Shown here: positions 30,564 through 55,600 of the stretch, in pieces
Numbering within the stretch: position 1 is the stretch's first letter
Layout: each line of letters starts with the position of its first letter
Assembly (NCBI RefSeq): GCF_963576615.1
Contig: NC_088717.1
Location: forward strand, 59,534,038-59,598,037
DNA from: Watersipora subatra
Lineage: Eukaryota; Bryozoa; Gymnolaemata; Cheilostomatida; Watersiporidae
Direction of reading: 5' to 3'
DNA length: 64,000 bases
Notes under the pieces: generated by a model
Seen by the model: only the letters and a program-made list of their open reading frames with translations
The model's database searches: none
Told to the model about the DNA's origin: nothing
Translations under genes and position numbers: made by a program

Positions 30564-33500
30564 CTAGACGACTTTGACATCTTCATCCGAGTCGGCATAT
30601 TGTTGAGCAGCGATGAGGCTATGGGAGCGTGTCAGCTCGTGTAGTGACATACGACAGTGACGATGACTGAGTGAGGGATAGTAACGCCGATATACCGTGT
30701 AAGCGATAACCATTCCTAGCAAAGACCCTACCAAGACATCCTGCCAGTGATGATGATTGTCAACTGTTCTACTTATGGCCACACATGTCGCTAGGATTAT
30801 AGGAATGATACTGGTGACCAGCTTCCAACCTTGCCTGTCGCCATTTAGGGAAAATGTCTCCAGTTTACCAGATATGTAGAAGAACACCCACACGAGTCTA
30901 AAACATGCGATCAGAAAGATTTATTATTGAACAGCATGATCAACATGAATTAAGGAGGATGCTTTAAAAATGGTAAGCAAATGCTCAATCTGCTAGATTT
31001 TGTTAGCTGACAACTGCACATAACGACCAACCAGCGTGCACAATCTATATGTTGTGTGTTAACCTTTGCATGCCAAAATTATGTGTAGGCTATAACCTAC
31101 ACAGTAAAGCTCCATGAAGAATGCCCACTGGGGAAGCTTTTCCGACCCTCTATAATATCTGCAGCCAAACCAGAACATTGAACATCGTCACTCCACTCCA
31201 CTTGCTCTTCATGAATAAAACACCTGCAAGAACGGTTATTAGCACACAGGTCGCAATGTTTAACACATAATAGGTAACAGATAACGAAAGCAGCCAGCAA
31301 ACCATGCTGAGTAAAAAGGGAAAGATATCATCTGTCTATAGAGCTTGTGCAAAAGCACATTCAAGCAACACGTATACTTGTTAAAATGCAATCCAATAGC
31401 AATACAACGACCTGCAAAAACTATAACCACCTGCCACAACCACAATACCTTGTTACAGCCATAACAACATACATGTAATCGATTGCTACAGTACAGTCAT
31501 ACCTCTACATATGAGCAAATTGAGATACGAGTAGAATTTCGAGCAAGTTTCTACCTTGAGATACGAGTAATCTTTGAGATACGAGCCGGTTCTTGATGGC
31601 CGCTATATGGCCAAGTATGCAAGAGGCTGCTTTTGAGAACAAATCGCTCAGGTTTTTCTTCGAATCAGTTTTAAGAGTTTTTATAGGGTTGCCTAATTAT
31701 AGTAATGCAAGGGAAAAAGCGTCCAACCGCAACAAATAATACCAAATAAGACAAAATTAAAGTAAGTATTGTAAAAGATTGAAACTTAGCTTTAGGTGTG
31801 TGTTTAGTGAGCTAAATTCTTGTAAGTTAACTTCACAGAACTTCAGTTGCCTAGCCTCACAAAAGTTTAGGATACCGAACGCGCTGCTATCAAGTCTCTC
31901 TCAGACCACCATTAGTCACTACGTCTGTCTCGAAGGTAAAAACGTACTTTAGTGTACATGGTAATGCTACATTTTACTGCAGATTTTAACAACTACATTA
32001 CACCAATTAAAAACGCAATTTTCCTATGTAATACCCTGTTTAATGTGGTTTTCTCTTAGTACGGTACCGGATCATTTTGTAATTAGTTATTTTATATAGG
32101 AAATAGTGCTCAGACCCAAAACACATTAAGCTCATATGTCGAGGTATGGCTATACATAGTGACAACCAAAACAACCTACTACTGTACTTGGTTATAACTG
32201 CAACAAGCTGCCACAATTGTATTGATTTGCCACAGCCATAAAACCCTATTACAGCCAAAAACGTGTCAAGATCACAAGCCAAAACAACTTGTCACAGCAA
32301 TGACAACTTGTCACAGCCATAACAACCAGTCACAGCCATGACAACTTGTCACAGCCATGACAACTTGTCACAGCAATGACAACTTGTCACAGCCATAACA
32401 ACTTGTCACAGCCATAACAACCAGTCACAGCCATGACAACTTGTCACAGCCATGACAACTTGTCACAGCCATGACAACTTGTTACAGCCATGGCAACTTG
32501 TCACAGCCATAACAACTTGTCACAGCCATGACAACTTGTCACAGCCATAACAACTTGTCACAGCCATAACAACTTTTCACAGCCATGACAACTTGTCACA
32601 GCCATAACAACTTGTCACAGCCATGACAACTTGTCACAGCCATAACAACTTGTCACAGCCATGACACCTTGTCACAGCCATGACAACTTGTCACAGCCAT
32701 AACAACTTGTCACAGCCATAACAACCAGTCACAGTCATGACAACTTGTCACAGCCATGACAACTTGTCACAGCAATGACAACTTGTCACAGCCATAACAA
32801 CTTGTCACAGCCATAACAACCAGTCACAGCCATGACAACTTGTCACAGCCATGACAACTTGTCACAGCCATGACAACTTGTTACAGCCATGGCAACTTGT
32901 CACAGCCATGGCAACTTGTCACAGCCATAACAACTTGTCACAGCCATGACAACTTGTCACAGCCATGACATCTGCCACAGCCATGACAACTTGTCACAGC
33001 CATAACAACTTGTCACAGCCACAACTTGTCACAGCCATGACAACTTGTCACAGCCATAACAACTTGTCACAGCCATGACAACTTGTAACAGCCATGACAA
33101 CTTGTCACAGCCATAACAACTTGTCACAGCCATGACAACTTGTCACAGCCATGACATCTGCCACAGCCATGACAACTTGTCACAGCCATAACAACTTGTC
33201 ACAGCCACAACTTGTCACAGCCATGACAACTTGTCACAGCCATAACAACTTGTCACAGCCATGACAACTTGTAACAGCCATGACAACTTGTCACAGCCAT
33301 GACAACTTGTCACAGCCATGACATCTGCCACAGCCATGACAGCCAAGTCAACATCAGTGTTGCCAAAAGATGAGATTGCTAGCAACACGTATACAAACCT
33401 GTAGTAAAAGTCGGGACGAGGCCTACCCGCTGCCAACTTAATCACATTCACCACAGCACCATTGATGAGGCATGCGAGGCTGTAAGACATGAACGCTTCT

Positions 33501-33780
33501 CTCAAGTCTGACCTGTCACGTGTCAGCAGGTACACTATGACTAGTATAAAAGGGCCTGAAAGTACACAACAACATGCTCTTTTTCATTCAAATAGTGACT
33601 TGATTTTAAAATGCAAGCTTATAATATTATAACCTCTTGGCAAAAGGGAAATGTATCATACCTACGGCCAAGACTTCTGTCCATAGGACCCATGTTGGTA
33701 CATAACTCACTCGCCTAGGATACTTGTAGAGCCATATTTCCTCAGGCCTTATGTTTCTAGTGCTCGGCTTGCCCCACTCA
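30564..33780 (-). CDS. Phospholipid phosphatase 4/5-like (PAP2 family)
   Basis: A multi-pass membrane phosphatase of the PAP2 superfamily that dephosphorylates lipid phosphates such as phosphatidate. Exons in coding order: about 33780-33662, 33555-33399, 31223-31101 and 30897-30564 (stop included); phases agree at every junction. The three catalytic motifs are present: KLAAGRPRP (K-x6-RP), SFPSGHSS (PSGH) and SRTVDNHHHWQD (SR-x5-H-x3-D). RPEEIWLYKYPRR in the first exon found, and YYRCF across a junction, point to the PLPP4/PLPP5 (PPAPDC1) branch. The C-terminus is a short acidic tail. The start exon with the first membrane helix was not found, and the 33780 boundary is uncertain. The 2.2-kb intron holds a Tigger-like element and a 1-kb satellite. 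Confidence 0.9.
31494..32152. mobile_element. Tigger/mariner-like element, 659 bp
   Basis: The left tip CAGTCATACCTCTACATATG and the reverse complement of the right tip agree, with TA on both sides. The interior matches the older element at 11700-13725. It is noncoding and lies in a PAP2 gene intron. Confidence 0.85.
32280..33350. repeat. 19-bp satellite with internal dyad, higher-order structure
   Basis: About 55 units of CATGACAACTTGTCACAGC or CATAACAACTTGTCACAGC. Each TTGTCACAGCCATGACAA is an inverted repeat (TTGTCA-n6-TGACAA). A multi-unit block with the rarer variants CATCTGCCACAG and a shortened unit appears twice (about 32965-33040 and 33150-33230), showing segmental duplication inside the array. 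It ends 49 bp before a PAP2 exon. Confidence 0.95.
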
Positions 33781-38947: not shown

Positions 38948-41900
38948 ATGGGAAAATCTACTCAGCTCAACGATTTAGAATCACTTGGCATTACTGTCAC
39001 ACTCAAGCTCCCAGATGGTAAACTAGTTCCGATCACGCTACATCAATGTGATCAAATAGTAAAGATCTACAGTTTGGCATCAAGGGAAGTTGGTGCGAAG
39101 CAGTCACTGATAAGAATAAAGTATTCCGGAAAAGTGCTACAACAACAACAGAGCGTTTCATTTTTGGGACTAATGTCTGGAATGGTTCTGAAAACAGAGG
39201 TAAGTGTGGAGTAGCAATGCCAGGCTGAAAAACATGAATATTACTGAGCTAATACCATCATAAAATTGTGTAACAGATTCTCGCACTGTGAAATGAAAAA
39301 AATTTGTTTTATGCTACCAGATACAGGATAAAAAAACAATGCATAGCACATCTATATTACATCCACCAAATGCATACTTGCTATTTGAAAACATAGCATC
39401 GGTCTAGCAACAAAATCAGGTACATCAAACGAATTTCAATATAACTTGTTGGAACAAAAGTGTTGAAGTTCCTGCAACACAGTAAATAAGCACATTATAA
39501 GGTAACATATATTTCAGGTTATAACAGTCAGAACTCTAGACTTGACAATAAAACTAGAAAGAGAAGATAGCGAGGGTGAGGTGATGACACTTCAGTGCTA
39601 CAACACTGACACTCTCCAGCAGTTGCTCCAGCAACTGGAAGAAAAAGGATGCAGAAACTGTCAAATATATTTAGGAAGTAAAAAGTTGCCAAGCGAACAG
39701 ATGCTCTGTGACCTTAAGATAGGCAACAACTCGACTCTAACAGCGAGACTCCAAACCAAATCAGTTAAAAACCCTACTTCACAGGTACTTATCAATCTCA
39801 GTTACCATCTCAACTGCCTAGCCATATTTTGTTTGATACCTTAGCACTTACTAGTTAATGGTATTTCAGTCTCTGTCAGCACAAGAGTCTCTGCCAGATA
39901 TCATGCCAACATTTACAGCTGATGGAAAACCTGTAGAAGTCGTCTTCTCATTTGATACAACAGGAAGTATGTTCTCCGTCTTAACACAGGTATAGCCTTC
40001 GTAATAATCATTTCAGCTTATATTCGATATTATATTATAGATAGTCAAATAGTTTTCATCACCAATAAAGAAAGTACCGCCGCTTCTGGCATAGAGATCA
40101 CCAGCATTGTCTACTTTTCAACTTTGTGTGCTTTGCAGGTTCGCAACAACCTTCGAGACTTGATTGATCGTCTCCTCGCAGACATACCTAATATTAGAGT
40201 CGGGCTGATGGCGCAGGGAGACTACTGTGATTATTCCAACTATGTCATCAAGTCTCATGAGCTCAGCAATGATGCTGAAAGCTTAAAGAACTTTGCCATG
40301 GATGTTCCTGCTACCGGTGGAGGGGATTCTCCAGAGGTTGGTACAATTTAGTCAATACCACTAAAGATGATGACAGAAGCAGCGACGATTCTACCTAAAA
40401 ATATCAGATTCCAATTGAAACTGACTGTAAATCTTTCGCAACTTGTGAGTCCAGCATAAGATTAGAGAAGTGGTAGTGTTGTGGTACACATAGAATAAGA
40501 GCACACGCATGAAACACGTATAAAGACTAGCCACTTATTGGTTTGTTTAAAGATTACAGGATATTGTAGGCTTACGAGTTGGTCTTAAAAAGAGCTCAAG
40601 AAATGGATTGGAGTGAGGACTCTGCTAAAGCCCTGGTAGTTATTGGAGACAGTGCTCCACACCCCCCTTCCATGACAGACCAAAATATCTACTGGCACAC
40701 TGAGCTAGATATTCTTTCAGCTTTAGGAGTTAAGGTACTTTTTAAAGAGAATGTTATAAAGTATTATCCATGTGACTTTACATCTAAAAGTCACATGGAT
40801 AATCCTAGTTGAGTAGTATTGGTTGACTAGTACCGGTTGACTAGAAATGGTTGACTATTAGCGGTGGACTAGTACTGGTTGATTAGTACTGCTTGATGAG
40901 AACTGGTTGACTAATGCTGGTTGACTAGTACCGGTTGACTAGTACCAGTTGACTAATTCTGGTTGACAAGTACCGGTTGACAAGTACCGGTTGACTATTA
41001 CTGGTTGACTAATTATTATTGGTTAAGTAGACAAAATACAAAAAATGATGATTGTTGACTCTTGTTTAGACTGAGTTGACAAAAAGTTGTTAGCTCTTTT
41101 ACAATAATTTTAGCATATGCAATTCCTGCAATAAATGTCACATTTGATGGAATGGAATTTCCTTCAAAGATAAAATACTGAAGCATTTTGTTTTGCTGCC
41201 CTTTTAAAGGTCTATGGTGTGCAAGCTAAGCCAGATATCTCAGTAACACCTTTCTACAAAGAGCTAGCAGATAGAACCAATGGGGCGTATGTTACATTCT
41301 CCAACTTCTCCCTTATTAAGGACATGTTTCTGGCAGGTGGGTATTTATTAATAGCTGTGCTGTCGCAGAGAGTATTCCTCGAGCTCGAGGGTGTCTCTCA
41401 TTAATACGATAGATGAGCAGTAAGAGCTTAGCTAAGATGGTAGATGTCTAATCACTGGTAATAGTAAAGGACATTATGGATAGAGGGCACTTAGCCGCCC
41501 ATGTCTTTGATATGAAGTTGTCCAAGAGGTGTTTGGCGTTTGAATGTTTGTTAGATGATGTAGCTGACATGTATTATGTGACTGGAGAATATGCACCATT
41601 GTTCTAACGGAAACTAGAATTCAACTATCGGTATTTTTACCGCATGGTTACATCACTCACTCCTGCCATTTGTTCCTCTTCTTTGGGTTACAGTGTGCTA
41701 CAATGAAGCCTCAGAACAACATCTTGGCGAATTCCGAAGTGAATTGGAAGAGGGAGGACAGTTGACAGCCCAACAAGAGCAAATATTCAGTCAGCTCCAA
41801 GAGCAGCAAGAGGCTGTCAAGGAAGACAAAGCAGCTGAAATTGTTGCTTTGCAAATAGCCTTTGATCCAAGACAATCCAAGGTACAATAGAAATAGACAA

Positions 41901-42218
41901 TTTAAGGTCTATTGACAAATAGTTTCTAATTTTTAATCAAGTTACTTTCACATACTTCTGGATTAATGCAAAGAGAATAACACCAGCATGTAACAAGTTA
42001 TATTTCTGCTGTAGAATTACACGAGCACCAAATGGTTTGATAAAGCACTTGACCATGGGACTCCTCAATACTCGCTAAATATGAACACCAACAGATGGGG
42101 TCCATACAACACAAGCAAATGTGCCAAAGATTCCGCCTCTTTGTCATCAACAATCAAGGAGCCAATAAAAAGAAAGAGGCATGTCTCAATTTTCAACTGT
42201 TTTGCATCATCACACTAA
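38948..42218 (+). CDS. UBL-UBL-VWA protein, tandem copy A
   Basis: Eight exons: 38948-39199, 39518-39784, 39870-39989, 40139-40336, 40570-40734, 41210-41336, 41694-41881 and 42015-42218 (stop included). They give 506 residues with all phases matched and no breaks. Residues ~1-84 and ~85-165 resemble two ubiquitin-like domains (VTLKLPDGK...LIRIKYSGKVLQ, then LTIKLERED...IYLGSKKLP). A von Willebrand A domain follows, with the MIDAS-type FDTTGSM, the loop ATGGGDSPEAYELV, VVIGDSAPHPP, and YKELADRTNGAYVTF near its end. Then come a helical EEGGQLTAQQEQIFSQLQEQ segment and a basic tail ending IFNCFASSH. The VWA resembles those of intracellular vwkA-like proteins. There is no signal peptide, so it is probably cytosolic. 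The substrate and role are unknown. AATAAA at 42471 may serve polyadenylation. It is a tandem paralogue of the gene at 48742. Confidence 0.92.
40763..40803. repeat. Perfect 17-bp-arm hairpin in intron 5 of gene A
   Basis: ATTATCCATGTGACTTT, the 7-nt loop ACATCTA, then the exact reverse complement. It lies 29 bp after the donor of exon 5 and is absent from the corresponding intron of gene B. Confidence 0.92.
40803..41025. repeat. ~15-bp repeat (GGTTGACTAGTACC)
   Basis: About 14 variants of GGTTGACTAGTACC or GGTTGACTAATACT in intron 5 of gene A, starting directly after the hairpin. It is not present in gene B. Confidence 0.9.
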
Positions 42219-42299
42219 CTGATTAACTCCCTTAACTAGTATAGTTAAGTATGTTGAGTAGCATATAGTGACAGGGTAAAGGTCATTAAAGGTCATAAG

Positions 42300-43341
42300 G
42301 TTGACTCTTATGAGTGCACAACATTTACCATGGAATATATGTATAGTAAGACGTAGCTGCGGGTGACATATTTAGAGCCCACCCTACAGTTAACACTGTT
42401 TACAATATTGAGCACTATCTGATTTCTTTATCACATAAAACGAGTTCTTATGACAATCGATGTATCTTCAAATAAATTTATTACACAAGGTCGAGCGAAG
42501 ATGTGTTTTTCTCAGATGTTTCACCTAAAGTCAATTCCTACAATGAGCAAGCTTCTTAGACATTCTACATCAGCAACAGTCCACCGAGTGCTTCTTGAAA
42601 TGATCTTCTATCTACATATATTAGTGACACGCATCTCATAACCACAAATCACGCAATCAACATGTTGGCTAGCATGGCCAGAGATAAGTACTGTAGTACA
42701 GCACAAAACGCATGCAAAATATGGAAGATGATTTGTGTTTACCTTGTAGAAATTAGAACCTTTTGCAGCATTTTCTACCATAGAAGCATCAATGAACATG
42801 GGGGCCTTCAAATGTAAAGAATATGTGACATTGCAATAGTCTTTACTACCACATGAGCAAAAAGACATTGGTTTTACATCAAGCTGGTTTACAAACATGT
42901 TTGAAGATGCAGCAAAACCCGCAAAATAGAGTAGCGTGACCACTTTAGCACATTCAAGAATTAGCCTAATCATGCCATCGTTTAGGGCAAGGAAAACAAT
43001 TGTTCAATTAGTATCCACTTGAAGACCGCGCTAAAACACTCGCCAGAACCATGGCTAGAGCATGATGACATATCTTCTAAAGCGATACCAGAAAATGTTC
43101 TTTGAATCTTCATGGTGCCATAAGTTTCTGGCAGCTCTTAAGTAACAATGCACGAATATTTAGATGTCAGAGTGTTGATGCAGAATATGTTATTTGTAAT
43201 ATACAATGCATCTGTGCCATTTCAGACTAGTATTTAAAATCTTTTGGGAAATGCCAGACAAAACTAGATGATTTCTACTGAGCAGTTGCCAAATTAATTC
43301 CCAAACATTTAATATATCATTGTATATCTAATCAAAAGCTT

Positions 43342-43418
<77 letters not shown>

Positions 43419-45940
43419 GATGACCCAAGCAAACTAGCTAAAAAACACACTAGTTAATAATCATCCACCAAAGCATAAAAGTACGAACATAAATAAGAAT
43501 GACCATTGGCTCTAAAGTGAGCAAGTATAAAATCATAGAATAGATGTCATCATGGTTATATGAATGTGAAAGAGCTACCAACTCATTGCAATTGTATTTG
43601 CACAGTATTAGTACACATTCAACTCAGGTCAAACACAAACTCTTCAGGGTTTTTTCTGATAGACCAACTTTTTATGCTCAATTCAGAAAGTAAGGAGTCT
43701 TTTAAACAATGCACAAATTCAATAAAATAAAGTTTAATATTTAAAATCAAACAATAAAATTTAAAAAACAAACAATAAATTAAGTTTAATAAAAAAATAT
43801 ATACCTTGAGAGTCAAAAATATTTTGACCTTCAACTTGTCAAAATACATCACAATGTATTTTGACAAGTTGAAGAACTTATAATAGCAATAAGAAAGTTT
43901 GAAATTTTGTGTTCTTCAACACAAGCATCAATACATTTTGTCATTGAGTAATTATCCCCAATTTCATAACATCATCATAGAGCCAAGTGGTTACATGCTT
44001 TGGGAGCATGGCACTCGCCGTACTTACAATCTTTTTCCCAATCTATCTACCAACCTTGCCTAGTATTTCTAAAAGGGGAAACTCTTTCTTTGATAGTTTG
44101 CTCATGGAATATAAAACTTTGTCACCACTCACAAGCTCACAATTAGTAGGCCTAGAGATTACAACCATCTTGGTATGCCATGCCTTGTTAAAAGTATTTG
44201 TGGTATAGAACTTAACAATCCTATCCGACAGGTTACCAACAGGAAATTAGTCCACAGTGAACCTAACAGACAGAGAGCAGCATGAAGTTGGCTCGAACAG
44301 CCATTGTCGCTGCATCCAATGTGATGAATAGCCATTGTAAGGTTACGAATAAAGAAACTAGGCTTCAGCAGAATGAAAGAAACCAAAGATGAAGAAAATC
44401 CATCAAGACCAGCATCAATGTGTCTGACTGAGCAGAACGGTTGAATCTTCCGACAAACACTTGTCCAGCAAAATACATTTAAAATGTAGTCAAGTTCACT
44501 AACCATAGTTGTATTTGCTGTATGGGATGACAGGTTGACTAAAAACCAGCCAGGCATCAAAGTACCCTCTTCCTTCAACTTTCCTCATCTCCCCTGCTTA
44601 TCAAAATACAACAAATCAAATGAGACAGAGCAGAACTGTCTGTGGCCTAATCAAGACCTTTCAAGCATCCAGAGGGTGTGCACCAATTCATCGAGCATCT
44701 GCTAATCCAAAATAGCAACTGTACTAAAGGGCCATGTAAAACAAGTTAGTACATGACGAGATTGTTATAGGCATCTAAAAGTACTGAATCAATTGCCCAG
44801 ATCTGGATTTTTAGCAATGTGTACAGAAGAAAAATCTGTTTTTTACTCACACTAAGCAATAGGTTTATCGGTATAAAAAAGGACCCTTTCAAATCTTGTT
44901 CGATCGACAAAGGATAGACAGGCTAATAAAGTAGCAGCATTTAATGTGCAAAAAAATATTAAGATATAGAGAAGTAACACTACAAAAAGTGTGGCCTGCG
45001 GAGGTATTTCAGTTCAAGCAATGAAATCGCAATGTAATATTTGCAAGCAGTATGTTAATTAACAGCCTTTGTAGATGCAAAAAATGTTAAAGAAATGCAC
45101 GTTGATGAAGATGGACATAAGGATTTTAGTGAATTATTTTTGAGACCAATGATTAAAGAAAACTACAGAGATACCAAGGCCATAGTTAGGGAAAATGAAG
45201 CTTATCTATCATCTGATTCAGCTTGACAATAGCTCAAGGAGATATTATTACAGCTATTCTTAAACGAACTGGAACTTTCCAAAAAGTCTCAAAATGTATT
45301 GAGAGGGCAAGCAATATGCTAAAAGAGGAAATCAAAAAGCTCGGGAGCACTCAGCATTGCCCCGATAGTTACTGAGATGTTGAATCAGGACGTTAGGTTA
45401 GGCTAGCGGCGACCATTTCTAAAACAGCAATCGGACAGTCTCAAATTAATAGGGACTTTGGGACAAGTTTTGAGAAACCATAAGATGAGTTGTGCAAGAC
45501 TTGACTTGAAACTTGGAATAATTTGACATGATGGGTGGCTCTGTAGATTGGTTTAGTTTTTGTGTGTGCTGCTCATCGGATTGGTGAGATATTTGGGTGG
45601 ATACTTTTGTTTTTGCTCATAACTGCGTGGACCTTTGTTGTTTTTTAGTGTGTGTAGACTACGGCCCGGCCTCAGCTTCGGCAATATCCCGCTAAAGGAC
45701 ACCTGTGGTTGAAGCTTAGACGCCCTTGTCCGTTTTCAAGCCTTGTTTCACCTTTCATTTAAACAGTCTCCAGAAAGTCGAGAAAGGTAGCTGCCTTCCC
45801 AAGTTGAAACATGGAAAGATAGTCATGAAAAAGGTCAACAAGCTAATGAAGAAGTATGCCTTATGATTGATGACACCCAATGAGTCTGGTTCAATCAGAG
45901 TCAGAGCTTTACAATCAGACTAAAAACCACTGGAAACAAT
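42300..45940. other. Spacer between the tandem genes, origin unclear
   Basis: AT-rich sequence with a 70-bp (AT)n run at 43346-43413 and a perfect 20-bp-arm hairpin at 43830-43873. Two open minus-strand frames (42608-42973 and 44159-44578, 121 and 139 codons) have no recognisable domain and no clear splice context. They may be remnants of mobile DNA. Confidence 0.35.
43830..43873. repeat. Perfect 20-bp-arm hairpin
   Basis: TTCAACTTGTCAAAATACAT, the loop CACA, and the exact reverse complement. A 20-bp stem with a 4-nt loop is the longest perfect hairpin I noticed in the window. Confidence 0.92.
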
Positions 45941-45949
45941 ATTAGAAAA

Positions 45950-47150
45950 GCCTATAAGTTTGGCACCTGCTTGTTTTCAACAAATACTACTTTATCTGTC
46001 TAAGTACAATCTGGATATCAAGAAACACTCGCAGACAGACTATCGCATCTTGCTAAACCAGGAAAGGACCAAGAACTACCAAGATTTTATGTTAAGACAG
46101 TTTATGATAGCTCAAGCGCTGAAAGTTGCTCCTACTCATCTGGATGACATTGTGCTAAAACTCAGATCCTAGTGTTTTTACCCTGAGTGATTAAATCAAG
46201 AATGAATGGCCTCATAGTATGCAAGATCTTCCAGAAAAACTTCAAAATTCTTGGTGCTGCAGAAAGGAACTCACTATTTTTGATGGTTTGATCACTAAAA
46301 GTAATAGAATCGTCATCCTTACCGATTCACAGGCTGCAACTCTGCAAGGTCTACAATATATACATCAAAGCGTCACATCTACATTGCAAAGAGCACAATT
46401 ATGGTGTACTGGTGGATGATATCACCGGCTTGTTCAACCAGCGTCAATAATGCCGGATTCATGCTAAAAAGAAACCTCAACCTCCTGAAGGACAAGTTAC
46501 TGCATCTCAACCATCTCAGATACTGGTTGTTGATCTTCTTGGCTTCAAGTGTCAAACATCAATGGTGACCATAGACTTCTACTCCGGCTATATGACTTTT
46601 GCTGTCCTGGACAATGAGTCTGCAGATCAGGTTATCACTGCATTAAATATCAACTTTCAAAAATTTGGATTAGTTGAAGAGATCTACTGAGATAATGGAC
46701 CATGCTTCAAATCAGGAGAATTCACTAATTTTTGTCCAGAACTAGAAATTTTACACGAGACCACCAATCCTCATCACCATCAATCCATGAGTAAAGTTGA
46801 AAGGGCCACACAGACAGTCAAGCAGATTTTGAAAAAGTCAAAAAACAACCTTGATGTCACATGTTGCTTGATTACATATCATGACACTCCAATTAGGAAC
46901 CTCTTGCCAAGCTCTGCAGAACTGTGTATAGAAAGGAGAATCAACACACGTCTTCGTCTTATGTGTGCTCCATTAATAATGAAAGATTTTCAAAAAGCCA
47001 AACCAACAGAGCACAGAGCTGCACATCTGAAGGATCCAAGAAGGAACCAAGATAAATACGTGTGGCGAATCAAGCTGTTTGGTTCACAGAGAAGGGTTGT
47101 GCTGAATAAAAACCTGGCATCAATATATCAAGAGATCCGCATCTGAATTC
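45950..47150 (+). pseudogene. Ty3/Gypsy retrotransposon pol relic (RNase H end to integrase)
   Basis: After the RNase H-like LSKYNLDIKKHSQTDYRIL there is a zinc-binding-domain-like stretch (KELTIFDGLITKSNRIVI) and an integrase core. The core has LLGFKCQTSMVTIDFYSGYM, then an in-frame stop before DNGPCFKSGEFTNFC, then HHHQSMSKVERATQTVKQIL. The D and DNG...E spacing fits a DDE integrase. The frame shifts several times and stops interrupt it, so it is inactive. No LTRs were recognised. Confidence 0.85.
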
Positions 47151-47198
47151 ATACTGGATCTTAAACCAACAAAGCGGCAGAAGTGTCTGCAGAAACAA

Positions 47199-47582
47199 AT
47201 GCAGAAGCGATGCAGACCAACTGCTGCAAAGCATCCAGGGTTATCAGAACAAGTGTGTACTAATGCCAACCCTCTATCATCACCTCCCAATTCACCACCT
47301 CCCAATTCACCACCTCCCAATTCACCACCTCCCAATTCACCGTCTCCTAATTCACCACCTCCCGCTTCACCACCTCCCGCTTCACCACCTCCTACTTTAC
47401 TGCCTTCTAATTCACCACCTCTCGCTTCACCACCTCCTACTTCACTGCCTTCTAATTCACTACCTCCTAATTCACCACTCCTAATTTATCACCTCCTTAT
47501 TCACCATCTCTTAATTTATCGCCTCCTAATTCACCACCTTTTAATTCCCTACCTCCTAGTTTACCACCTGAAGCACGACTAA
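47199..47582 (+). other. Proline-rich 15-bp coding-like repeat
   Basis: An open frame encodes repeats of PPNSP or PPASP from 15-bp CACCTCCCAATTCAC units (about 47275-47570). It directly follows the Gypsy integrase relic and could be part of that element's 3' region. Whether it is expressed is unknown. Confidence 0.5.
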
Positions 47583-48555
47583 ACACACCTGATACAGATG
47601 CGCTGATGTCTGCTACACCTGCACAAAAGACTACATCAGAAAAAGCTTCATACCCATAAAAGAGGAACCATCAACAATGCGTACTACAAGATCAGGTTCA
47701 ATAGGCAAAAATACTAAACGCTTAAATTATACCTACTATTCTTCAAATTTAAAACATTTCCAAACAGGGACATGTTATAACTAGTTCTAGAACACTCCTT
47801 TTGTCGCATGGTCATTAACTACTTATGTACTAGCTTTATGTGATTGCTACTAATGTACTAGCTTTATCTAATAATTTCTAATGTGCTAGCTTTATTACGC
47901 ATTACTAGTATATATAACTCAGCTGCTGAGCACGAAGAGTTCAGTTCACCATTGTCACTGGTTTTATGAAATGCAAGCTCAATGAGAAACATAACACTAC
48001 CTCTAATAACAATACATGTATTGAATGTTTGATAGGAATCGATCTGAAATTTTCTAGTTTCCATTTGTTAGTTCTTGACAAATATTGTTTCAAATCAGCA
48101 AAAAAATGTTGACCATTGCGTAAACGAGTTTACGCAATTTTCTATATACATGTAACGGTAAATAAATTGGCTGAGCATTCTTCACGGTAACTAAACCGCT
48201 AGCTCTAATAGTTTGTTGTGCGATTGCAAAGTATCACAACTGAGTCAGTTGAACTGACTTCACTATGAAATCACTTTTAAGTTTTTACATTCTTATAAGC
48301 AATTATTACAAACTAATAATATTAGACATATCGTCAAATAATCCTGGAGATGTGATGCGGTTTGAATGAAACTCGTTTCAGTTCTTCGTTAAAAATATAC
48401 ACCCGTGCTGTTAACATATACAGTAAATCGAATAAGCGAGTTCTTTACAAAACTATTATTTCGCGACCGAGTACATTTTAGCCTTTCCGTGATAGCTCTA
48501 TTGTGCAAGACCGCTCAGCTTAGGACATACACTATTTGGAATACTATATCTGGTT

Positions 48556-48632
48556 CTAAAAATAGTTGGCTCTATAATTCGTCGATAAAATTAGAACAGC
48601 CAATCAACTGCAAGCAAAAGCGCTACAAATAC
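48556..48632 (+). promoter_or_regulatory. Conserved promoter-proximal block of UBL-VWA gene B
   Basis: CTAAAAATAG, an exact MEF2 consensus, at 48556, then CGATAAAATTAG at 48583 and GCTACAAATAC at 48622. The order matches the block upstream of gene A. The start codon lies 110 bp after the last word. Confidence 0.55.
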
Positions 48633-48741
48633 TCGTGACAGCTTTCTTTTTGGCATTGCGCACTTAGGGTTCGAACACTTTTCTATTAAAACTTAATTAT
48701 TCTGTTTCACCAATATTGTTTTTAGTAGTACATATTCAGGA

Positions 48742-51700
48742 ATGGGTAAATCTACGCAGCTCAAAGATTTAGATTTACTTGGAGTTACAGTCACTCTTAA
48801 GCTTCCAGATGGGAAAACAATTCCAGCCACACTGCATCAACATGACCAAATGGCCAAAATCTACAGTTTGGCATCAGAGGAGTGTGGTGAAAGGCAGTCA
48901 TTGATAAGAATAAAATATTCTGGAAAAGTACTACAACAGCACCAAAGTGTTTCCTATTTAGGATTAATGTCTGGAATGGTTCTAAAAACAGAGGTAAGTG
49001 TGCACTTCTAATTTCAAACTGAAAAGACAAAGTTACGCAACCGATATTACTTTGCAATGTTGTCACAATTTTTGCATTGTATTATAAATTGTGTTTAAAT
49101 CTCTGTTGCTATCTACTAGTCTTTAAAAAAAGCATACTGTAAGAAACATGTATATTTGTTTATTTGCTATTTGAAAATGTAGCATCAGTCTACGTATGTT
49201 AGTCTGGAAACGTTCAAACAAAATTAGGTACATCAAACGAATTTCAATATAACTTGTTGAAACAAAAGTTTTGAAGTTCCTGTAGCACAGTAAATAAGCG
49301 CATAATAAGGTAACACATATTTCAGGTTATAACAGTCAGAACTCTAGATTTGACAATAAAACTAGAAAGAGATGATAACGAGGGTGAAGTGATGACACTT
49401 CAGTGCTACAACACTGACACTCCTCAGCAGTTGCTCCAGCAACTGGAAGAAAGAGAATGCAGAAACTGTCAGATATATTTAGGAAGTAAAAAGTTGCCAA
49501 GCGAACAGATGCTCTGTGACCTTAAGATAGGCAACAACTCGACTCTAACAGCGAGACTCCAAACCAAATCAGTTAAAAACCCTACTTCACAGGTACTTAT
49601 CAATCTCAGTTACCATCTCAACTGCCTAGCCATATTTTGTTTGATACCTTCGCACTTACTAGTTAATGGTATTTCAGCCTCCGTCAGCACAGGAGTCTCT
49701 GCCAGATATCATGCCAACATTTACAGCTGATGGAAAACTGGTAGAAGTCGTCTTCTCATTTGATACAACAGGAAGTATGTCCTCCGTCTTAACACAGGTA
49801 TAGTATAATCTAGAGCAGAAGTGCTAATACTTCAGTATATCTACATGTAGATACTACACAATCCCAAACACACAATAGGTTATAGGTGTGGCCACACCTC
49901 AGTTACACAACAGCGTGTGTTGATTGCGCTTGCCTCAGCGCCGCATGCTGCTCGATGATATCTGACAACTCAATCGAATGGCCGATAAGTCTTTTTTTTG
50001 TATTACAACGCTTTTTTGAAAGGTTCTATAAAATCTTTTAACAAGCTGATAACTTGAATATTGTAGCTGTATGCAGCACCACATGGTACGTTGTACAGAT
50101 GTACTTGTAATAGCCTATTGCAAGGGTCAAACTAATTAATGTTTCAATTGATTGGTCGAGAACTAAAAATGTGAATGACGATTTTAACCTTTTATAACTT
50201 GCAGGTTCGCAGCAGTGTGCGGGACATTGTTGATCGTCTCGTCAGAGACATACCTAATATCAGAGTTGGACTGATGGTACACGGAGACTACGACCACTAT
50301 GCCAACTACGTCGTCAAATCGCATGAACTTTGTAATGACGCTGAAAGTCTAAAAAGGTTTGCAATGGATGTCTCTGCTACCGGAGGAGGTTTTACTATTC
50401 CTGAGGTTTGATATTAAACATTCATACAAACATGAATGCTTGATTGTTGCATGTTTGTGCGATGTTACAGTCCTATGATGTTAGTAGGTTACATCAGATA
50501 GATTAGTACAAAAACTACATGCAATGGTTGCCTTGTTTGCCAAGAAAAGGGCACAAAAACTGAGTGTTGTTGTAGGCTTATGAGCTGGTCTTAAAAAAAG
50601 CTCAAGAAATGGATTGGAGTGAGAACTCTGCTAAAGCCCTGGTAGTTATTGGGGACAGTGCCCCACACCCTCCTTCCTTCACGGACCAAAATATCTACTG
50701 GCATACTGAGCTAGATATTCTTTCAGCTTTGGGAATTAAGGTAAGAACTGCCTCTGATATATCTATGATGACAGTGAATATACATAGACGAGGTGCTAGA
50801 CATAGAACAGAATAGACATTAAAATAATAGACATGGAAATGAGCAGAATCGACATCAACCACCATCTACAAACGGGTTATGAGGTCTGTTTGTCATTCAT
50901 TTATAAATCGAGTATTTGTTGGAGCTGAACAACTATATCTAGTTGCAAGTTTGTAGTTATTAATATTATCTTATTTTTTGGTGGGTTTATTGTTGTTTTA
51001 TTGATTTTCATCTGGGCTCGGTCATGCATACTAAATGTGGAAGGCAACATTTATTGCATGCTGATAGCAAGCACATTTGAACAATTCGTGCGTGGGAAGT
51101 AATAATATTTGTATTTTACTGTTACAGGTCTATGGAGTACAGGCTAGGTCCGACCGTGCAGTCACTTCCTTTTATAAAGAGCTCGCTGACAGAACAAACG
51201 GAGCATATGTTACGTTCTCCAATATATCCCTTATTAAAGACATGTTTCTGGCAGGTGGGTGTCACATTATAAGCTGAGCGTATGTTACAGAGTTTTCTGT
51301 ACATTCATGGTATGACAAGGACAGGCTTTAGTAGTTGTCTGCCTACTAGAGCATGTACTTAGTGTATAGTGATGTAATTGGTGTATTTGACTGACAATAT
51401 GTTGTGAATTCTACATATCTATGATGACAGTGAATATACATAGACGAGGTGCTAGACATAGAACAGAATAGACATAAAAATAATAGACATGGAAATGAGC
51501 AGAATCGACATCAACCACCATCTACAAATGGGTTATGATATGTAAAATTATGGTTATGAGATATAGATGTATGTCGAATTCACAATATGTTGTGAATTCT
51601 AAATTATCTTAGCTATTCTGGATTGGCTAGCTTTCACAATTGTTGCTTACATCAACCTTTATGTTTGGGTTACAGTGGGCTACAATGGGGGCTGTATATC

Positions 51701-52298
51701 ATTGGTTACATCACTCACTCCTGCCATTTGTTCCTCTTCTTTGGGTTACAGTGTGCTACAATGAAGCCTCAGAACAACATCTTGGCGAATTCCGAAGTGA
51801 ATTGGAAGAGGGAGGTCAGTTAACGGCCCAACAAGAGCAAATATTCAGTCAGCTCCAGGAGCAGCAAGAGGCTGTCAAGGAAGACAAAGCAGCTGAAATA
51901 ATTGATTTGCAAATAGCCTTTGATCCAAGACAATCCAAGGTACGTTAGCAACCAGATTTTGATTCACTACCTAGTTGTACATATAAGCTACTTAAAGCAA
52001 TAATGCCACAAGACAGTGGCCACAACTGTGTAGCAGGTAACATGGTCTGTTTGTGTTGTAGAATTATACGAGCGCCAGCTGGTTTGACAAAGCTCTTGAT
52101 CATGGGACTCCTCAGTACACATACAAGCCAGAAACCGACAAATGGGCTCCATGCGCCATAAGCAAGAATGTTCTGTCATTACCATCCACTACTCCTGCAG
52201 GCCGCATTGTTCCCTCTACTTCAAATGTCAGGACGAACAAAAAACCAAAAACAAGGAAACCCACTCTAATTTTCAACTGCTTTGCTTCTTCTCGTTGA
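48742..52298 (+). CDS. UBL-UBL-VWA protein, tandem copy B
   Basis: Exons: 48742-48993, 49326-49592, 49678-49797, 50205-50405, 50576-50740, 51128-51254, 51752-51939 and 52062-52298 (stop included), giving 518 residues. The exon-intron plan equals that of gene A. Exon 1 differs from A at about 16 of 84 residues, exon 2 at about 5 of 89 and exon 7 at 2 of 62. The VWA keeps FDTTGSM and VVIGDSAPHPP. However, the conserved loop GGGDSPEA of gene A reads GGGFTIPEA here, with one extra codon and loss of the acidic residue, so metal binding may be altered. The C-terminal tail is longer but ends with the same IFNCFAS motif. No disabling change is seen. Introns 5 and 6 share a 125-bp duplicated block. 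Confidence 0.92.
50745..50880. repeat. ~125-bp direct repeat, unit 1 (intron 5 of gene B)
   Basis: The sequence from TATATCTATGATGACAGTGA through CCACCATCTACAAACGGGTT recurs in intron 6 at about 51415-51540 with very few differences. Neither copy occurs in gene A. Confidence 0.92.
51415..51540. repeat. ~125-bp direct repeat, unit 2 (intron 6 of gene B)
   Basis: Near-identical to the block at 50745-50880. The two copies bracket exon 6 (51128-51254). Confidence 0.92.
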
Positions 52299-52602: not shown

Positions 52603-55600
52603 TTAAAATGATGACTGAGATCTCTTGGATAAGTTGAGGTTCTCTGAGCTCACCCTCTTTTTCACGTCTTGAGATGTAAGGTCCATGGCTAGCCGCACCT
52701 GCTGCAGCCATGGCTTGTCCTTGAAGTTGCTCGCTATCGATAGGCATTTGATAGCGTAGTCCCGTGACTTGAGTCCACGGTATCTTTCATAGAGAGCAAG
52801 GGTTGTGAGTGCCGGATCTGTCTCCTGCATGAACAGAATTCATAATTTCGCAGTAGACATGTTGATGTCACTTACGATGCGAATCATGAACTGAGTTGCT
52901 TTTTAAAATTTGAGAAACAGAATTATTACCTTAGATTTGCAGTGCTGTAGGTAAGGTTGGACAGTGTTTTCTATGTTGATGAGTGTGAGAGACAGAATTA
53001 TCACCTTAGATTTGCAGTGCTGTAGGTAAGGTTGGACAGTGTTTTCTATGTTGATGAGTGTGAGAGACAGAATTATCACCTTAGATTTGCAGTGCTGTAG
53101 GTAAGGTTGGACAGTGTTTTCTATGTTGATGAGTGTGAGAGACAGAATTATCACCTTAGATTTGCAGTGCTGTAGTTAAGGTTGGACAGTGTTTTCTGTG
53201 TTGATGAGTGTGAGAGACAGAATTCTTACCTTAGATTTGCAGTGCTGTAGGTAAGGTCGGACATTGTTTTCTGTGTTGATGAGTGTGAGAGACAGAATTA
53301 TCACCTTAGATTTGCAGTGCTGTAGTTAAGGTTGGACAGTGTTTTCTATGTTGATGAGTGTGAGAGACAGAATTATCACCTTAGATTTGCAGTGCTGTAG
53401 TTAAGGTTGGACAGTGTTTTCTATGTTGATGAGTGTGAGAGACAGAATTGTTACCTTAGATTTGCAGTGCTGTAGGTAAGGTTAGAGAGTGCTTTCTATG
53501 TTGATGAGTGTGAGAGACAGAATTCTTACCTTAGATTTGCAGTGCTGTAGGTAAGGTTAGACAGTGTTTTCTATGTTGATGAGTATGAGAGACAGAATTG
53601 TTACCTTAGATTTGCAGTGCTGTAGTTAAGGTTAGACAGTGTTTTCTATGTTGATGAGTGTGAGAGACAGAATTATCACCTTAGATTTGCAGTGCTGTAG
53701 TTAAGGTTAGACAGTGTTTTCTATGTTGATGAGTGTGAGAGACAGAATTCTTACCTTAGATTTGCAGTGCTGTAGGTAAGGTCGGACATTGTTTTCTGTG
53801 TTGATGAGTGGCAGCGGTATGGAATATTCAACTGTCTTTACTTTTGCTTTTTTCATCGCCGAGATGACCTGAAATATGTCAACATTTCAGCTGAGCCATC
53901 ACTGCCTGTGATTCAAGGTAAGACAAACCTTTGCAAAATGGCTAGTAGTAATCTTCTTTCACGCTTGAATGATTAGGTTAGAAATATTTTTTATTGTTCA
54001 AAATGAAGAAATAATGGCTTGCTACTGGTATTCGGTTATTTTGGGAACTCAGCTGGCTTCCCGACCAATATAATGCAAAACGATTGTTTGAAATCAGTAA
54101 AACCTGCTATGCATTTTTCACCACGTGTTTATGAGAGGACATATTGTATTTATTCACCACGTGTTTATGAGAGGACATATTGTATTTATTCACCACGTGT
54201 TTATGAGAGGACATATTGTATTTATTCACCACGTGTTTATGAGAGGACATATTGTATTTATTCACCACGTGTTTATGAGAGGACATATTGTATTTATTCA
54301 CCACGTGTTTATGAGAGGACATATTGTATTTTTTCACCACGTGTTTATGAGAGGACATATTGTATTTAAACACATCTATCTATATATAAAAATCTCAAAG
54401 TTTGTCATCTGTGATTTGGTCTGACCATCTACAGCAAGTAGTATCTAACAATGATAAATCTGTATGACAGAAGATTCAATCTCGGAACTTCCCGTACACC
54501 AGGCAACTACCTAACCAATTAAGCTACGTGAGATGCATCGAGCGAAATGAGTCGTTATCTGGATTAAAACACGCAGAGCACTCTGCATGCTCTGCATTTC
54601 TAAACGTCAAGAAAGTTTGCTCCCACGGCTCTTATTAGTAAGTTAGCTTACTAGGTAACTTACTCAAATTAGCCATTGGCAATGTGCCAGGCTAATGGCA
54701 AGTGGCAGACAACTACGCTACCTGTCACTGTTTAAAAGCTGTTTTTAATACCCGTGCATTTGGTAGCTAGCAATAAAATATATCATTACATTTCTGCTCA
54801 TGTATTTGTAGTTTCTACTTGATGGTTCTGTCTCTGGTCCTTCACACCTCAAAAGGTCATAAATTTGATCTCATCGGTGAAATTATCAACAACCAGATGA
54901 GAGGTCTTTGGCAAAAGCATGATTTCTTTTAAACAAGATTTAAGCTGATGTTAACCATTTTTGTCAGACAAACTGTATAAGCTTAAGATTGTACAGTTAG
55001 CTTCAAGTCAAATTGTTGCAGTCTCTTCATAAATATGTGTACATATTTATATATATTATATACATTATATATATTATATGCACATAAAAGGTTGTTCACG
55101 AGAAAAAAACTACTCATTTTGTGGATGAGGTATTTGTGAAGAAGTGTTATGGTTAGTGCTGAACATAGTAGCTTGTCTGAACCTTCCGTTTCTCTCAGGT
55201 TAGTGAGTTCACGTCTATATTATTTTTCAATATTAGAAAACAGGCTTTAATAAGTTCTTGAGTACCTTCAATTATCATAGTACTAGTACGCTAGAAATCA
55301 TAGTACTAGTACGCTAGAGATCATAGTACTAGTACGCTAGAGAGATCATAGTACTAGTATGAGAGATCATAGTACTAGTACGCTAGAGAGGTCATCAGGT
55401 GTAATAAGAATCTGTACAATTATTCTGCGAGGCAACAAGTGGCAGGTGGTAGAGTGGCGCAGTTGATAGTGTGGCTGGCTGGTAAACCAAATACAATGTA
55501 TCTGAGTTTGAACCCTGTGCAATGCATGTTTTTACCTAACCTCTGATTGTAGTGAAGACTAGTGAAATGCCGGCGTTGCATGGTATTAAATATTAGCTTA

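Follow-up and report, generated by a model that had tools for sequence, protein, structure and literature searches.

Two tandem genes, named A and B here, were identified in a window of 64,000 nucleotides from the bryozoan Watersipora subatra (NC_088717.1, positions 59534038-59598037, within an assembly of 783.7 Mb and 239 contigs), and each is predicted to encode two ubiquitin-like (UBL) domains followed by a von Willebrand factor A (vWA) domain. On the predicted splicing, both genes and the UBL-UBL-vWA architecture are real, with moderate support for the second UBL. It is proposed, with a probability of roughly 40%, that the two proteins would be intracellular, non-enzymatic adaptors in which the vWA domain binds a client and the UBLs bind a partner.

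Gene models and domain order

Gene A (38948-42218) and gene B (48742-52298) both lie on the plus strand. Splicing of the window at GT-AG sites joined eight exons in each case, and these predicted joins gave proteins of 506 and 518 residues. Both spliced frames are open throughout, for 506 codons in A and 518 in B, all seven introns of gene B are GT-AG, and the intron phases match between the copies, the only intron out of phase 0 being the one preceding exon 7. The original prediction of two complete eight-exon genes was thereby reproduced, with the same outer coordinates, 38948 and 52298, and the IFNCFAS tail that it described begins at residue 498 in A and 510 in B. A chance origin of the gene models is unlikely, since the exon structure recurs in both copies and their overall pairwise nonsynonymous divergence (dN) is 0.10 against a synonymous divergence (dS) of 0.49. 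The exons, with the evidence for each, are as follows.

Gene A exon 1, 38948..39199, plus strand: MGKST start and first UBL, 84 aa (splicing, Pfam)
Gene A exon 2, 39518..39784, plus strand: second UBL, 89 aa (splicing, Pfam, shuffle test)
Gene A exon 3, 39870..39989, plus strand: linker and vWA start with DTTGSM (splicing, Pfam)
Gene A exon 4, 40139..40336, plus strand: vWA, GGGD loop (splicing, Pfam)
Gene A exon 5, 40570..40734, plus strand: vWA, IGDSAPHPP (splicing, Pfam, genome query)
Gene A exon 6, 41210..41336, plus strand: vWA end (splicing, Pfam)
Gene A exon 7, 41694..41881, plus strand: Gln/Glu-rich segment (splicing, genome query)
Gene A exon 8, 42015..42218, plus strand: tail ending SIFNCFASSH, stop (splicing)
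Gene B exon 1, 48742..48993, plus strand: first UBL (splicing, Pfam, genome query)
Gene B exon 2, 49326..49592, plus strand: second UBL (splicing, Pfam, genome query, shuffle test)
Gene B exon 3, 49678..49797, plus strand: linker, DTTGSM (splicing, Pfam)
Gene B exon 4, 50205..50405, plus strand: vWA, loop altered to GGGFTI (splicing, A/B alignment)
Gene B exon 5, 50576..50740, plus strand: vWA, IGDSAPHPP (splicing, genome query)
Gene B exon 6, 51128..51254, plus strand: vWA end (splicing, Pfam)
Gene B exon 7, 51752..51939, plus strand: Gln/Glu-rich segment (splicing, genome query)
Gene B exon 8, 52062..52298, plus strand: tail ending LIFNCFASSR, stop (splicing)

In each gene, exon 1 alone encodes the first domain (UBL1) and exon 2 alone the second (UBL2). 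Against the Pfam family PF00240, for which the curated cut-off is 25.4 bits, UBL1 (residues 17-81) in the full proteins scored 28.0 bits in B, above the cut-off, and 22.6 bits in A, below it. The N-terminal 173 residues of A, with both UBLs included, scored 27.9 bits, also above the cut-off, and exon 1 by itself lay slightly under it in both copies (20.4 bits in A and 25.0 in B). Among solved chains, the best matches of UBL1 are the UBLs of RAD23 (E = 4e-4); a weak match (E = 0.15) was to chain 2daf, named FLJ35834, which we take to be IQUB. UBL2 by itself scored below the PF00240 cut-off (14.5 bits in A, 13.4 in B) and found nothing significant among solved chains (best E = 0.17), six of its ten listed matches being ubiquitins, ubiquitin variants or putative ubiquitins, with a UHRF1 chain left uncounted. 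A ubiquitin model was also built from the same genome with 16 of its 43 ubiquitin matches (30 with loci), identical repeats of one polyubiquitin and partial matches being left out. Against this model UBL2 reached 16.0 bits in A and 12.5 in B, scores attained by 0 of 3000 shuffles of each sequence when shuffles with no reported score were counted as low. When ten shuffles of UBL2 were compared with Pfam, none matched PF00240 and five matched other families. The predicted order UBL, UBL, vWA was thus recovered in both proteins, with good support for UBL1 and moderate support for UBL2.

The residue at the position of ubiquitin Ile44, which is important on the ubiquitin surface, is Lys58 in UBL1 and Tyr135 in UBL2, identically in A and B. 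The C-terminal GG of a conjugatable ubiquitin-like modifier follows neither domain: UBL1 continues TE-VITVRT and UBL2 continues RLQTKSVKN.

The vWA domain spans exons 3-6, and VWA (PF00092) matched both full proteins above its cut-off of 23.8 bits (26.5 in A, 31.9 in B). It is presumably of the VwkA-like type, with a DTTGSM-type motif in common. In passages of PMC7159879, the metal site of vWA domains is described as binding extended peptides and as having one aspartate where strand 1 ends and another where strand 4 ends. DTTGS (D202) and IGDS (D306 in A, D307 in B) are kept in both copies, and on the inferred strand places these residues would be the strand-end aspartates of the metal site. 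The loop of gene A, GGGDSPEA, fits the pattern GGGDxPEA, while gene B reads GGGFTIPEA, in which the aspartate of GGGD is gone and one residue has been gained. Of the three vWA motifs originally named, DTTGSM and IGDxAPHPP (as IGDSAPHPP) therefore stood in both copies, and GGGDxPEA held for A but failed in B.

When Pfam was searched with the complete proteins at E up to 10, the families reported were all of VWA or ubiquitin type, HMMER filters dropping most weak matches, and no enzyme domain was therefore seen. The same search reported no UBA, no alpha-kinase domain, no Vint and no UIM in either protein, the last motif being so short as to be easily missed. NCBIfam gave nothing close to any cut-off, and the PADLOC models, which are bacterial, gave 0 families for the two proteins at E up to 0.1. 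The highest 19-residue hydropathy is 1.48 in A and 1.27 in B, with values of 1.0 or less in the first windows; no strongly hydrophobic stretch was seen in either protein, as judged from hydropathy windows only, with no signal-peptide predictor. The Gln/Glu-rich segment of exon 7 in A is probably helical.

Mosaic identity of the two copies

The two proteins are 83% identical (421/505 aligned), and dN is below dS in exons 1 and 4 as well as overall. It can be observed that the identity is distributed unevenly: from exon 1 to exon 8 it is 81%, 97%, 95%, 76%, 92%, 77%, 96% and 64%, and intron 2 is 99% identical (84/85) against 45-74% over aligned letters in introns 1 and 3-7. Differences at fourfold sites, counted only in codons where the first two bases agree between the copies, number 15/32, 0/32, 0/20, 10/22, 4/22, 10/19, 2/17 and 7/15 for exons 1-8, and when pooled they amount to 0/52 in exons 2-3 versus 42/88 in exons 1, 4, 6 and 8. 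A permutation run test, which assumes exchangeable codons, gave p = 1e-4 for the mosaic (none of 10,000 permutations reached the observed score), and a Fisher test of exons 2, 3 and 7 versus exons 1, 4, 6 and 8, grouped post hoc with exon 5 (4/22) omitted, gave p = 4e-11. Two tracts resembling conversion were delimited, with approximate edges.

Tract 1, 39420..39995 in A: from the last part of intron 1 into the beginning of intron 3; counterpart in B at ~49228-49803
Tract 2, 41645..41881 in A: last part of intron 6 plus exon 7; counterpart in B at ~51703-51939

In tract 1, windows of 60 bases are 0.90-1.00 identical from 39429 onward; in tract 2 they are 0.93-1.00 identical within 41662-41871 and 0.80-0.82 at the edges. 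Gene conversion between tandem copies is the natural cause, as silent and intron sites follow the same pattern, and we infer this origin of the near-identical patches from two sequences only. Protein-level selection alone was rejected as their cause, because the fourfold sites of exons 2-3 and intron 2 are almost unchanged. Two further features lie in the introns of gene B: at 51664-51687 in intron 6, 24 bp that nearly repeat (95.8%) the acceptor region of exon 7, and a block of ~125 bp that introns 5 and 6 have in common (about 50757-50882 and 51418-51543).

Copy number and genomic neighbourhood

No third copy was found when exons 1, 2, 5 and 7 were used as queries across the 783.7-Mb genome, only the best candidates being scored. 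Exons 1, 5 and 7 of A matched A and B only, and exon 2 gave two additional matches at E 0.8-0.9. A genome search with VWA_4 at E up to 0.001 returned a single match, elsewhere, and neither A nor B. A scan of viral contigs with the joined alignment yielded 496 pattern stretches, and one of prokaryote genomes with the vWA alignment yielded 53; there were 0 relatives in either set, the patterns used being narrow. In the same genome, a cluster of ubiquitin repeats on contig C3 (1482129-1783898) contains a 587-codon polyubiquitin frame and many diverged copies.

Downstream on the minus strand is a neighbour which we take to be ANKUB1-like, only the 3' part of which is within the window. IQUB and ANKUB1 are animal proteins with UBLs, in which the partner domains are IQ or ankyrin and not vWA. 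Two window frames taken as exons of this neighbour had no Pfam match; three more frames, assigned to its 5' exons, lie outside the window, and two of these had weak ubiquitin matches (11.6 and 12.2 bits) and one had none. These three frames had no significant match to the UBLs of either gene (best blastp E = 0.12). A common origin with the neighbour was rejected for want of detectable kinship, and the adjacency to ANKUB1, which had been put forward as a point of added interest, adds little. At 52911-53810 there are twelve copies of a 75-bp unit, each of which seems to carry, on the minus strand, the end of an ANKUB1-like exon (..LQHCKSK) with a GT donor, and the repeat may have multiplied an exon end together with its splice donor.

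Between A and B, the region 46451-47569 holds decayed retroelement pieces, including an integrase-like frame (rve, 15.1 bits, below cut-off), and also a 15-bp tandem repeat coding for Pro/Ser. At 30564-33583, minus-strand frames with GRPRPDF and PSGHSS presumably belong to a PAP2-type lipid phosphatase gene.

The adaptor reading and its alternatives

The combination of vWA with ubiquitin-system modules is a known theme, represented in passages of two sources by Rpn10 (PMC7344625) and by U-box/RING-vWA proteins (PMC2362128). Rpn10 (PSMD4), described in the former as a proteasome receptor composed of vWA and UIM, is like A and B in that its vWA is joined to a ubiquitin-related module; unlike it, A and B have the reverse order and UBLs in place of UIMs. 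The latter describes eukaryotic VWA-Vint proteins, some with a U-box, and a RING-VWA relative, and these resemble A and B in having a module of the ubiquitin pathway ahead of a vWA located inside the cell (probably so in A and B), although in A and B this module is a UBL rather than a U-box or RING, and Vint was not reported. VwkA, a Dictyostelium alpha kinase, likewise has a vWA domain, according to a passage of PMC1420674, and differs from A and B, for which Pfam reported no alpha-kinase domain. The RAD23/DSK2 shuttles also begin with a UBL, that of RAD23 being the best match of UBL1 among solved chains, but they pair it with a UBA, whereas A and B have two UBLs, a changed Ile44 position and vWA for the rest. 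Among the matches listed, no description of a UBL-UBL-vWA protein appeared in full-text literature searched with narrow terms. The architecture may be a new and unstudied combination, but one made of known, ordinary modules.

In the proposed adaptors, both proteins would act inside the cell. The vWA metal site would grip a client peptide and the paired UBLs would dock a partner, not by the classic Ile44 patch but by a different surface, and the client would thereby be linked to a scaffold or to the ubiquitin/proteasome machinery. A and B may bind different clients, since their vWA loops (GGGD versus GGGFTI) have diverged and UBL2 has not.

Several results weigh against this proposal. Genome searches at E up to 0.001 with the VWA family (16 matches) and the ubiquitin family (the 43 matches mentioned above) included neither A nor B; it should be noted that these searches were scored exon by exon, and short pieces score low over 784 Mb, which accounts for the omission. 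The genome-built ubiquitin model supports UBL1 only modestly, although Pfam supports it better: with that model, the UBL1 scores of 6.0 bits in A and 5.8 in B were reached by 19/3000 and 11/3000 shuffles, respectively. One of the ten UBL2 shuffles scored 19.1 bits against an unrelated family, exceeding the Pfam score of UBL2 itself, so that weak Pfam scores by themselves prove little. Profile comparison detected no kinship between UBL1 and UBL2, AlphaFold2 models of the two UBL exons from two-row alignments were poor (predicted local distance difference test, pLDDT, 46.1 and 43.8), and the vWA of A, queried on its own, had no significant match among solved chains. In addition, Lys58 and Tyr135 at the Ile44 position weaken any reading that involves docking to the proteasome.

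Four other explanations were weighed. That A and B belong to an old, ordinary animal family, present in databases as uncharacterised, in which one ancestral UBL-UBL-vWA gene was duplicated here, has somewhat better than even odds and is compatible with the adaptor proposal; an established gene is suggested by the eight exons and by dN being lower than dS, and only the silence of the narrow literature searches speaks to the contrary. A shuttle of the RAD23/Dsk2 type, with UBLs docking on the proteasome subunits Rpn10, Rpn13 or Rpn1 and the vWA standing in for UBA as client receptor, is unlikely. The RAD23 matches of UBL1 are in its favor, and passages of PMC7344625 describe the binding of UBL domains to Rpn1, Rpn10 and Rpn13, but the Ile44 position is changed in both UBLs, which weighs against a simple shuttle of this type, and Pfam reported no UBA. 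Still less probable is a lineage-specific pair of immune or stress adaptors, kept alike by conversion while their vWA binding loops diverge. The tandem arrangement, mosaic identity and diverged loop are consistent with such a pair, as is the use of vWA modules by bacterial conflict systems and their occurrence in certain TRADD-N proteins of cnidarians (passages of PMC8195603); nevertheless, the exon queries revealed two copies only and no expansion, overall dN is far below dS, and the bacterial PADLOC models were not matched. Finally, decay of gene B with partial rescue by conversion, to which the altered GGGD loop and the near-duplicate of the exon 7 acceptor in intron 6 might point, is improbable given its open frame, its GT-AG introns, its higher scores than A with both Pfam models, and dN below dS even in exons 1 and 4.

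Returning to the adaptor proposal, a more specific form of it is put forward tentatively, as a possibility well short of an even chance: A and B might represent an undescribed animal adaptor family in which UBLs lacking Ile44 present a vWA client receptor. Conversion between the paralogues would keep UBL2 and the Gln/Glu-rich segment common to both while their vWA loops drift apart, so that one docking half would serve two receptors of differing metal or client preference. The mosaic marks the segments common to the pair, namely UBL2, the DTTGSM exon and exon 7, while exons 4 and 6 and the tail are the segments that may set specificity. If the proposal is true, UBL-UBL-vWA would be a further wiring of vWA to the ubiquitin system, beside Rpn10 and the U-box/RING-vWA proteins.

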